From NCBI RefSeq assembly GCF_018129995.1, contig NZ_JAFCKS010000001.1, positions 1,275,001 through 1,339,000 of the forward strand: a stretch of DNA of 64,000 nucleotides, read 5' to 3'. Source of the stretch: Bradyrhizobium sp. SZCCT0153 (GTDB taxonomy: Bacteria; Pseudomonadota; Alphaproteobacteria; Rhizobiales; Xanthobacteraceae). The translations under genes were made by a program, and so were the position numbers. The notes below the pieces were generated by a model. That model saw nothing but the letters and a program-made list of their open reading frames with translations, made no database searches and was not told where the DNA came from. Positions 30,840 through 34,203 of this stretch are shown here, piece by piece (positions within the stretch are counted from its first letter, which is position 1; every line of letters begins with the position of its first letter).

Positions 30840-31145
30840 ATGATCCCCGGCGAACTCTTCATCCAGGACGGCGAGATCGAGCTCAACGCCGGCCGCAAGA
30901 CCGTGACCTTGACGGTCGCCAACACCGGCGACCGCCCGATCCAGGTCGGCTCGCACTACCATTTCTTCGAGACCAACCCGGCGCTGAAGTTCGACCGCAG
31001 GAAAGCCCGCGGCATGCGCCTCGACATCGCCGCCGGCACCGCCGTTCGCTTCGAGCCGGGCCAGACCCGCGACGTCCAGCTGGTGGCTGTGGCCGGCAAG
31101 AAGACGATCTACGGTTTTCGTGGCGACGTCATGGGGAAGCTGTAG
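30840..31145 (+). CDS. ureB: Urease subunit beta UreB
   Basis: A 101-residue structural subunit of urease. It begins with the classical MIPGE and contains [39 protein letters not shown] and the C-terminal FRGDVMGKL. In most bacteria ureC follows directly; here about 1.3 kb of other sequence intervenes, bounded by repeats. Confidence 0.97.
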
Positions 31146-31175
31146 GGCAGGTTAAGGCGAGCACAGTGATCTACA

Positions 31176-31237
31176 GTGAGGTGAGCACGGCTGTCTCGCT
31201 CCCTCCCCCCTTGCGGGGGAGGGTTGGGGAGAGGGGT
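31176..31237 (+). repeat. Intergenic repeat, copy 1 (direct)
   Basis: The repeat starts with GTGAGGTGAGCACG (31176-31189) and has a C-rich/G-rich palindromic core at 31199-31237 (CTCCCTCCCCCCTTGCGGGG as its first 20 bases, then GAGGGTTGGGGAGAGGGGT). The same core recurs at 31786-31824 in the same orientation and at 31600-31637 inverted. Confidence 0.85.
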
Positions 31238-31714
31238 ATGCCACACGACGAGGTCTCTCCACTGCAAAGAACCCGCGCCAAACGATTGAGGCGCGAGATG
31301 ACTCGCGCTGAGACGTTGCTGTGGCGTCACCTGAAGGCCGATCGTCTTGCGGGCCTGGCCTTTCGCCGTCAGACCCCCATGGGCAATTACATCGCCGATT
31401 TCGTCGCCCATTCATGCAAGCTTATCGTTGAGCTCGATGGTGAGAGCCATGTGTTCGAAGAACGTATCCGGCACGATGAGTGGCGCGACCAATGGTTCGC
31501 GTCGCGTGGCTATCGTGTGCTGCGTTTCACCAATGACGACGTGATGAAAAATCTTGAGGGCGTCGTTCTCTCCATTCTCGAGGCAGCGGAGCCCGTGGCA
31601 CCCCTCTCCCTAACCCTCCCCCGCAAGGGGGGAGGGAACCCTTCCACGGATGCGTCCCTAACTAGCGACGATATTTATCCTTCTGCTTCTCCACAGACTG
31701 AGGAGAAGCCATGA
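31238..31714 (+). CDS. DUF559 domain protein, Vsr/restriction-endonuclease-like
   Basis: A 158-residue protein of the DUF559 family, which has the restriction-endonuclease-like fold related to very-short-patch repair nucleases. The conserved core is visible: RREMTRAETLLWRHLK, GLAFRRQTPMGNYIADFV, the probable metal site IVELDGESH, and WFASRGYRVLRFTNDDV. The C-terminal part (LSLTLPRKGGGN) is encoded by an inverted copy of the flanking repeat and is probably not functional. ATG 31238 is preferred; a GTG at 31166 would translate through repeat copy 1. It splits ureB from ureC and is probably mobile cargo. Confidence 0.85.
   Translation: MPHDEVSPLQRTRAKRLRREMTRAETLLWRHLKADRLAGLAFRRQTPMGNYIADFVAHSCKLIVELDGESHVFEERIRHDEWRDQWFASRGYRVLRFTNDDVMKNLEGVVLSILEAAEPVAPLSLTLPRKGGGNPSTDASLTSDDIYPSASPQTEEKP
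31600..31637 (-). repeat. Intergenic repeat, copy 2 (inverted)
   Basis: The reverse complement of the core at 31199-31237, reading ACCCCTCTCCCTAACCCTCC and then CCCGCAAGGGGGGAGGGA on the plus strand. It lies inside the 3' end of the DUF559 gene and encodes that protein's LSLTLPRKGGGN tail. Confidence 0.85.
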
Positions 31715-31762
31715 CTCAACGTTGTGCGGCGTGTGCATTCGGTTGTCAGGCTTTCATTCGTG

Positions 31763-31824
31763 GTGAGGTGAGCACGCTATCCAGGCTCCCTCCCCCCTTG
31801 CGGGGGAGGGTTGGGGAGAGGGGT
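31763..31824 (+). repeat. Intergenic repeat, copy 3 (direct)
   Basis: The second direct copy: GTGAGGTGAGCACG at 31763-31776 and the core at 31786-31824, differing from copy 1 mainly in the short spacer between them. Copies 1 and 3 lie 587 bp apart and frame the DUF559 gene. An open frame of 64 codons runs through this copy but is not considered a gene. Confidence 0.85.
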
Positions 31825-31910
31825 CTGCCCCGGGCGCTGACGGAAGCGACGGGGCAATTTCGTGCAGCGCGCATTTGCAGCGCGCGCGGACATGGAGTCC
31901 TGTGACCGCC

Positions 31911-32450
31911 ATGCTGTCGCCAATCCGCCTCATCTCCGAAGCCGCCGAACTTGCCGCGCGCCGTCACAACGGAATGGCGCGCAAGGGGCGCGGCAACGAG
32001 CCCTACATCAACCATCTCGCGGAGGTCGCGAACCTGCTCGCGACCGCGACAGATGGTGCGGATGCCGAACTGGTCGCGGCCGGCTGGCTGCATGATTCGA
32101 TCGAGGACACCGAAACCACGCGCGAGGAGCTCGCGCAGACATTCTCCGAACGTGTCGCCTCCCTTGTCGTTGAATGCACCGACGATATGAACCTGCCAAA
32201 GCCGGAGCGGCGGCGGCATCAGGTGCTCGATGCGCCTAAGAAATCGCCCAACGCCAAGCTGATCAAGATCGCCGACAAGATCAGCAATATCGGCGCGCGC
32301 GTCCATTCCGATCCGACGGCCGAGGAGCGTGACGACCTCGTCGACTACACTGACTGGGCCGAGCAGGTTGTCGCCGGTTGCCGCGGCGGAAACTCCAGGC
32401 TCGATACGACATTCGACGATATTGTGCTCACAGCGAGGGCTTCACTGTGA
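31911..32450 (+). CDS. MESH1-like HD-domain hydrolase ((p)ppGpp hydrolase-like)
   Basis: A 179-residue single-domain HD phosphohydrolase like the hydrolase half of SpoT/RelA and the small MESH1 enzymes. Metal-ligand motifs are in order: ARRHNG near residue 20, [25 protein letters not shown] (the HD pair and the ED motif), and [11 protein letters not shown], which supplies the distal Asp. There is no synthetase domain. Family knowledge suggests hydrolysis of (p)ppGpp or NADPH. A GTG at 31902 with GGAG four bases upstream is an alternative start. It stands 37 bp before ureC inside the urease cluster. Confidence 0.85.

Positions 32451-32487: not shown

Positions 32488-34203
<1,716 letters not shown>

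Follow-up and report, generated by a model that had tools for sequence, protein, structure and literature searches.

A DUF559 nuclease gene in the urease region of Bradyrhizobium and its association with intrastrand-triplex (TM/PIT) repeats

What ties a small nuclease-like gene in the urease region of a Bradyrhizobium genome to the repeats that frame it, and do gene and repeats form a mobile unit? The gene, of the DUF559 family (PD-(D/E)XK, Vsr/EDxHD-like), lies at 31238..31714 on the + strand of the window, the whole 64,000-nucleotide stretch that was analysed, and encodes 158 aa (PF04480, 127.5 bits). DUF559 is the sole clear family of this open reading frame, the related nuclease family MTES_1575 falling below its cut-off. 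An alternative GTG start at 31166 would give 182 aa; the ATG at 31238, directly 3' of the GGGGT tail of the first repeat, is most likely the start. The left neighbour is ureB (urease beta; 30840..31145, +, PF00699). On the right stands an HD_4-domain gene (31875..32450, +, PF13328), found at the same place in relatives, and 3' of it, from the ORF list and a reading of the sequence, an open reading frame at 32488..34203 (+) that we take to be ureC from its protein sequence. A sequence-only reading of this DNA had regarded ureB and ureC as normally adjacent, which is not the case in this genus, where the HD-domain gene stands between them. Among 117 genomes, 79 ureB-HD loci were collected (that of the window's own genome plus others with a long HD-gene match); ureB lay 5' of the HD gene in 77, and the other two stopped at a contig edge. 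No methyltransferase was found among the immediate neighbours of the DUF559 gene.

The same reading had described two direct repeats 587 bp apart around the gene and a third, inverted copy in its 3' end that codes for its tail, and all three were recovered. R1 (31176..31242, +; TM core 31201-31235) runs up to the gene's ATG with its tail, and R3 (31763..31829, +; TM core 31788-31822; second loop TTG) is a direct copy of it, the two being 67 nt long each, 88% identical and spaced by 587. R2 (31600..31640, -; TM core 31602-31636; second loop TTA) lies inverted inside the 3' end of the open reading frame, which ends at 31714, is 95-97% complementary to R1 and R3, and encodes the tail APLSLTLPRKGGGN. 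With up to 3 mismatches, the repeat occurs at 3 places in the 64 kb and at 0 in 100 shuffles. R2 and R3 together form a head-to-head dimer (31597..31832, without assigned strand), the halves of which are matched at dispersed places in relatives. As single-stranded DNA the dimer folds into one long hairpin (z -10.6; R1 by itself, z -2.1), and 100 of the 117 genus genomes have matches to it at E<=1e-8; because at most six candidate stretches were scored per genome, these counts were kept out of the tests below.

The three repeats fit a motif described in Escherichia coli. The TMECO consensus, CCCTCNCCC N3-6 GGGNGAGGG N3 GGGNGAGGG, comprises a C-arm, a pairing G-arm and a second G-arm able to serve as a third strand (Holder et al. 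2015, PMC4666352). R1, R2 and R3 each fit it with 0 mismatches, and the window holds three matches, compared with 0 in 100 shuffles; by sequence, the repeats thus belong to the TM/PIT intrastrand-triplex kind. Triplex formation in vitro is published in that source for the E. coli motif only. E. coli MG1655 has 23 TM motifs, including five inverted pairs that each combine a TTA-loop and a CCG-loop type (PMC4666352). A comparable rule appeared in the genus: in 18 of 19 hand-picked two-repeat loci, the second loop of one repeat ends in A (TTA, CTA, TCA) and that of its partner in G (CGG, TCG, TTG, CTG, TGG, CAG), L272 being the sole exception; R1 and R2 of the window obey it with TTG and TTA. Around the E. 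coli motifs, Holder et al. saw no remnants of transposases or integrases, and they called the mechanism and evolutionary origins of the motifs unanswered (PMC4666352). A word search of the main text of that paper found no mention of DUF559 or ycjD, and among the matches listed from the open-licence literature none linked DUF559/YcjD to REP, TM or PIT repeats. Other repeat identities were tried and rejected: the CGTC tag and CCA tail of CGTC REPs are absent from the aligned consensus, and GTAG stands at neither hairpin foot in the consensus of 63 aligned repeats. A RAYT partner was ruled out, as the window's genome contains no match to RAYT/Y1 transposases (PF01797). Two other Bradyrhizobium repeats, Br-REP1 and Br-REP2, have been described (PMC5082802).

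The protein has the features of a nuclease. Residues E25, D54, E65, D67, H71, D80, R96 and N99 are among those invariant in 66 diverse sequences, and the acidic residues and histidine among them are the presumed active site, by analogy with the family. In an AF2 model (mean pLDDT 79, most domain blocks above 80, the tail low), the fold matched the DUF559 protein structure 3hrl (Z 15.2), the homing endonuclease I-Bth0305I (Z 11.4) and Vsr (Z 10.1), with TnsA at a middling Z of 7.0 that was given no weight as evidence. I-Bth0305I was also matched by sequence (3r3p, E 7.7e-5); matches to enterotoxin B chains in the PDB (E 0.026 and above) were weak and taken as chance. The structure 3hrl is that of NGO0050 of Neisseria gonorrhoeae, a species in which one DUF559 gene (L218) has three TM-like motifs on its right side. 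YcjD, the E. coli member, has been assigned to the PD-(D/E)XK superfamily and described as related to Vsr (PMC1189080). In Caulobacter without a cytosine methyltransferase, the SOS response depends on the DUF559 protein VsrA (PMC12907096), which agrees with nuclease activity in vivo. None of the PADLOC anti-phage defence models matched the window protein at E<=0.01. Judged by a median dN/dS of 0.087 (374 usable pairs from 29 orthologues), the window-type gene is under purifying selection.

Framing by repeats proved to be a property of DUF559 genes well beyond this locus. The score was that of the strongest inverted match joining left and right flank, with a threshold of at least 14. This score was reached by 48 of 51 genus loci, which are not independent because they comprise orthologues at about nine sites, and by 52 of the 80 named loci, which span several phyla and are biased toward close relatives because they are the best 80 of 565 loci fitting one active-site pattern. 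Of 435 control spans offset by 800 to 1400 bases at the named loci, only 3 did so. At class level, 19 of 30 loci scored at least 14, and none of 118 shifted spans exceeded 13. The framed loci include records from Chloroflexi (L145, L153), Melainabacteria/Gastranaerophilales (L140, L142, L208), Spirochaetes (L210), Desulfo- and Delta-type bacteria (L194, L205), Thiobacillus (L161) and Xanthomonas (L207); the lone Nitrospirae record scored 13.5. Allowing up to 1 mismatch per block, the TM consensus itself lay within 300 nt of 36 of 51 genus, 27 of 80 named and 16 of 30 class loci, as opposed to 2 of 136, 7 of 295 and 0 of 118 offset spans, respectively. Repeats are common in some genomes, and intergenic copies could happen to fall near a small gene; the offset controls refute this explanation and leave it a negligible chance. 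The association between repeat and nuclease is real, strong and general. The sequence-only reading had named two findings that would count against its interpretation of a mobile unit, namely the gene at the same position in distant relatives without repeats and a lack of repeat enrichment beside DUF559 genes. Neither was found, and 28 of the 80 named loci fell below the threshold, ten of them Rhizobium, Agrobacterium and Mesorhizobium records.

The window's own genome has seven DUF559 loci, two of which are one locus inside an inverted duplication of contig C16. Inverted repeats, their sequence varying by locus, surround the domain in 5 of the 6 distinct loci. L007 (C18:517355-517669), a weaker DUF559 match within a long frame, has no framing repeats, and several relatives list just one DUF559 match, weak like this one. 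The duplication on C16 extends from about 434 kb to 1026 kb, where mirror-image repeats and one DUF559 gene point to a large inverted duplication; it is probably an assembly artefact.

Whether gene and repeats move jointly was approached through their genomic positions. Among genus DUF559 protein pairs at 75% identity or above, 256 of 257 shared flanks. Window-type loci lay beside ureB and/or ureC in 29 of the 30 read (the exception is L252), and the window-type gene was listed once in each of 33 genomes. Other subtypes have their own sites, in the dnaN/recF, pheS/pheT and glyQ/glyS gaps; in Sphingomonas, DUF559 genes sit before dnaG and between NAD(P) transhydrogenase genes, and no TM-like motif was seen at the latter site. 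The repeats themselves are dispersed, as solo copies or as inverted dimers, whose core matches are 20-120 nt apart in the examples read. The sequence-only interpretation is partly supported: the repeats disperse and are associated with the gene, but a mobile unit is not supported for the gene, whose orthologues keep their sites within the genus. A composite cassette in which gene and repeats move together like a transposon would account for repeat-gene-repeat units between co-operonic genes and for a type-I gene at another site in genome G064. We reject it as the main account, and consider it very improbable, because orthologues keep their sites; the single listing of the window-type gene per genome also argues against it. 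An insertion sequence or composite transposon would be expected at many sites, and was likewise rejected on the shared position of close pairs.

Several individual loci deserve mention. In several cases the cassette separates genes for subunits of a single enzyme. In the pheS-pheT gap, different genomes appear to have different DUF559 types, L005 and L081, of about 45-50% identity, the neighbours being identified by family search for L005 and by near-identical sequence for L081. On plasmid p1 of Azospirillum argentinense MTCC4035 (L225), an IS110-family element adjoins the cassette and has a 98% identical copy on another replicon. On Azospirillum chromids the cassette occupies one place in all seven replicons covering the query, and is therefore uninformative on gain or loss.

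Relatives with an empty site were looked for and found. Of the 77 ureB-HD sites with ureB, 19 carried gene and repeats, 7 carried repeats without an intact gene, and 51 were repeat-free in this search; thus, by the one search, repeats accompanied the gene at 19 of 19 sites and were absent from 51 of 58 gene-less sites. Hairpin-arm remnants were seen in three of the 51 repeat-free sites (G050, G079, G080). Of the 7 sites with repeats and no intact gene, four have solo repeats (G087, G010, G069, G067), and two have remnants of the gene between repeats (G026, G095). In three ureB-HD intervals of about 1.17 kb (L058 and two more; genomes G060, G055 and G062), an unrelated-looking gene takes the place of the DUF559 cassette, and no search gave an identifying match for it. 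In the genus, then, gene losses and scars are seen, and frequent gene hopping is not. Sister genomes G050 and G090 differ by the stretch between two hairpin loops, one having the joined outer hairpin halves and the other the full cassette. Such a pair, together with the existence of gene-less and filled alleles, is what might be seen if a selfish nuclease gene invaded pre-existing repeat dimers, using them as target and homology arm and without spreading any repeats, in the manner of a homing gene. The kinship of the protein with I-Bth0305I in fold and sequence fits such an invasion, as does the tandem duplication of a repeat-gene-repeat unit 5' of a glyS-like gene (L363, G040:C147:5500-7300). 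Even so, a deletion between short direct repeats accounts for the lack of the gene in G050 just as well as precise excision does, orthologues sit at fixed sites, and neither an intron nor an intein was seen next to the window gene; we regard invasion of this sort as quite unlikely.

The types of gene and repeat correspond. At the named loci, the left repeat matched its own right repeat with a mean of 23.4 and those of other loci with a mean of 10.9, a difference reached by 0 of 10,000 permutations; among the 44 loci with a score above 16.5, 29 had their own partner as the top match out of all 80. A second repeat subtype gives a further view of this pairing. Subtype I, CTTGCGGGGAGGGGTCGGGGGTGGGGG, was defined from two loci, in G064 and G031, and searched for with up to 2 mismatches; it is present in 15 of 117 genus genomes. 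Its cognate, the type-I DUF559 clade, comprises genes of G064, G031, G040, G044, G006, G024 and G052 (bootstrap 88, SH-aLRT 89), a grouping that rests on the tree because identity, at 56-57% on either side, does not by itself separate the clade from its neighbours; the tree was built after the repeat had been counted. All 7 genomes of the type-I clade carry the subtype I repeat, as do 8 of 110 others (p=1.3e-7, kinship ignored), two of the seven having supplied the subtype definition. Copies, including those that flank the gene, number 28, 15, 15, 6, 6, 5 and 2 in the order given above, and each of the seven genomes has at least 2 copies away from the gene. Without the cognate gene, subtype I is found with 9 copies in G097 and with one in each of seven other genomes. 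At the four genes of a separate sub-clade within the type-I clade, the repeat has a long-loop form.

Repeat numbers also vary with the presence of the gene. The window subtype has a median of 14 copies in 33 gene-plus genomes (DUF559 at 76% identity or above to the window type) and of 5 in 84 gene-less genomes (p=1e-6, kinship ignored), and the difference remains after the three own copies are subtracted (p=5e-4). Zero copies were found in 20 of the 84 gene-less and in 0 of the 33 gene-plus genomes. Eight genomes have at least 20 window-subtype repeats without the cognate gene; in G048 and G083 the gene may be missing from the assembly because the ureB-HD site falls at a contig end. Five of the other six repeat-rich gene-less genomes (at least 20 repeats) have a remnant, either a repeat or a hairpin arm, at the ureB-HD site (G010, G058, G067, G079, G087), compared with 5 of 52 other gene-less genomes (p=3e-4). 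Loss of the gene subsequent to the spread of the repeats would give this pattern, and the test is weakened because chance may also place a repeat beside ureB in a repeat-rich genome. A ureAB tree of 76 genomes, in which the trait was a window-type gene anywhere in the genome (G073 was scored as present, its HD-side site being without the gene), provided only four well-supported independent pairs for gene against repeat number; on this weakly resolved tree, gene presence changes at least 17 times.

The E. coli DUF559 gene, ycjD, offers a parallel in the organism of the published motif. It was found at 80% coverage or above in 3,364 of 5,426 complete genomes, usually in one copy. In strains 118UI and KE47 (L217), an inverted TM motif overlaps the 3' end of ycjD, and farther downstream come first a degenerate second copy and then a TM motif in forward orientation; this is the gene-R2-R3 order of the window. 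The inverted copy of MG1655 is degenerate, and the distance between the end of ycjD (1351407-1351760) and TMECO no. 9 (1351239-1351204) is 168 nt. No left repeat was found at E. coli ycjD. Beside fabI in three ycjD-minus strains the full TM motif is absent, with at most a CCCCAACC(T)CCCC-like remnant. The stretch containing ycjD's TM motifs was compared with an even draw of ranked records (60 rows, one plasmid row dropped): it matched 14-33 places (median 22) in 37 ycjD-plus genomes and 2-23 places (median 7.5) in 22 ycjD-minus genomes (p=9e-9, kinship ignored). Because ycjD follows phylogroups, being present in A, B1 and C and mostly lacking in B2, D, E, F and G (PMC12817139), this split may reflect few events. 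A megablast count, which sees near-exact copies of one TM variant only, revealed no difference (25 plus rows with mostly 4 places, 14 minus rows with 2-6).

These copy-number correlations, for the window subtype, subtype I and E. coli alike, would be equally compatible with a housekeeping nuclease that processes or repairs unstable triplexes or hairpins, the repeats spreading by other means and gene-plus genomes tolerating more of them. TM sites are unstable in E. coli (PMC4666352), and Caulobacter VsrA has been proposed to be a mismatch-repair endonuclease (PMC12907096). Such a role leaves unexplained both the framing of the gene by inverted repeats of the matching subtype and the subtype specificity of the pairing, and we judge it unlikely. 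On balance, we favour the DUF559 gene as a resident, domesticated nuclease partner of TM/PIT repeats that would spread them in trans. The observed association, its breadth, the orientation of the repeats, subtype pairing, purifying selection, fixed sites, loss scars and copy-number correlations all bear on this reading, and recognition, cleavage and copying are the steps that it proposes. In such a partnership, the repeat would form a hairpin or triplex when single-stranded during replication or transcription, and the Vsr/EDxHD-fold enzyme would recognise this structure in its cognate repeat and nick or cut there. Repair or template switching might then copy repeat dimers to other intergenic sites, so that repeats would spread in trans as the gene stayed single-copy and vertically inherited at a fixed site. 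More tentatively, and as a proposal that falls a little short of an even call, DUF559/YcjD proteins may be dedicated TM/PIT mobilisers across phyla, a non-HUH counterpart of RAYT-REPIN systems with one repeat subtype per nuclease clade. The pairing may explain how a widespread and long-puzzling class of bacterial repeats spreads. If it holds, TM/PIT repeats would gain a partner enzyme, and with it an origin, a mode of spreading and a genetic handle, in E. coli K-12 through ycjD, and DUF559, a widespread family of unknown role, would gain a function.

Among known systems, Vsr shares the fold of the window protein and Caulobacter VsrA its DUF559 domain (PMC12907096), whereas the window gene differs from both in having a repeat partner. 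The EDxHD homing endonuclease family (PMC3943268) shares catalytic-domain homology and fold through I-Bth0305I; the protein here is, in contrast, small and single-domain and is framed by genome-wide repeats. CGTC REPs of alphaproteobacteria are also short palindromes that occur as dimers and have no known dedicated transposase according to PMC3733652, but their stem and tag are unlike those of the window repeat. The E. coli TM/PIT motifs share the consensus and the pairing of A- and G-ending loops (TTA/CCG in E. coli); they differ in that mobility genes are reported to be absent near them (PMC4666352), whereas a DUF559 gene accompanies the repeats here. The closest resemblance in organisation is to RAYT-REPIN systems, or REPtrons, in which a gene and a repeat population occur together (PMC8049555, PMC3733652). 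The likeness to REP-associated systems that the sequence-only reading had drawn is borne out by a gene that is inherited vertically in single copy with cognate inverted repeats on its flanks, and by dispersed inverted repeat dimers. In raw counts the repeats are also commoner where the gene is present, a correlation for which the ureAB tree offered too few pairs for a phylogenetic correction and which the megablast count in E. coli did not show. The differences lie in the enzyme, which has a Vsr/EDxHD fold (PF04480) where theirs is a Y1/HUH transposase, and in the repeat, which lacks a GTAG tag and is built as a C-arm/G-arm/G-arm triplex motif. If the partnership proposed here is correct, systems of the RAYT-REPIN type, each a domesticated enzyme plus a repeat population, would have arisen more than once from unrelated enzymes.
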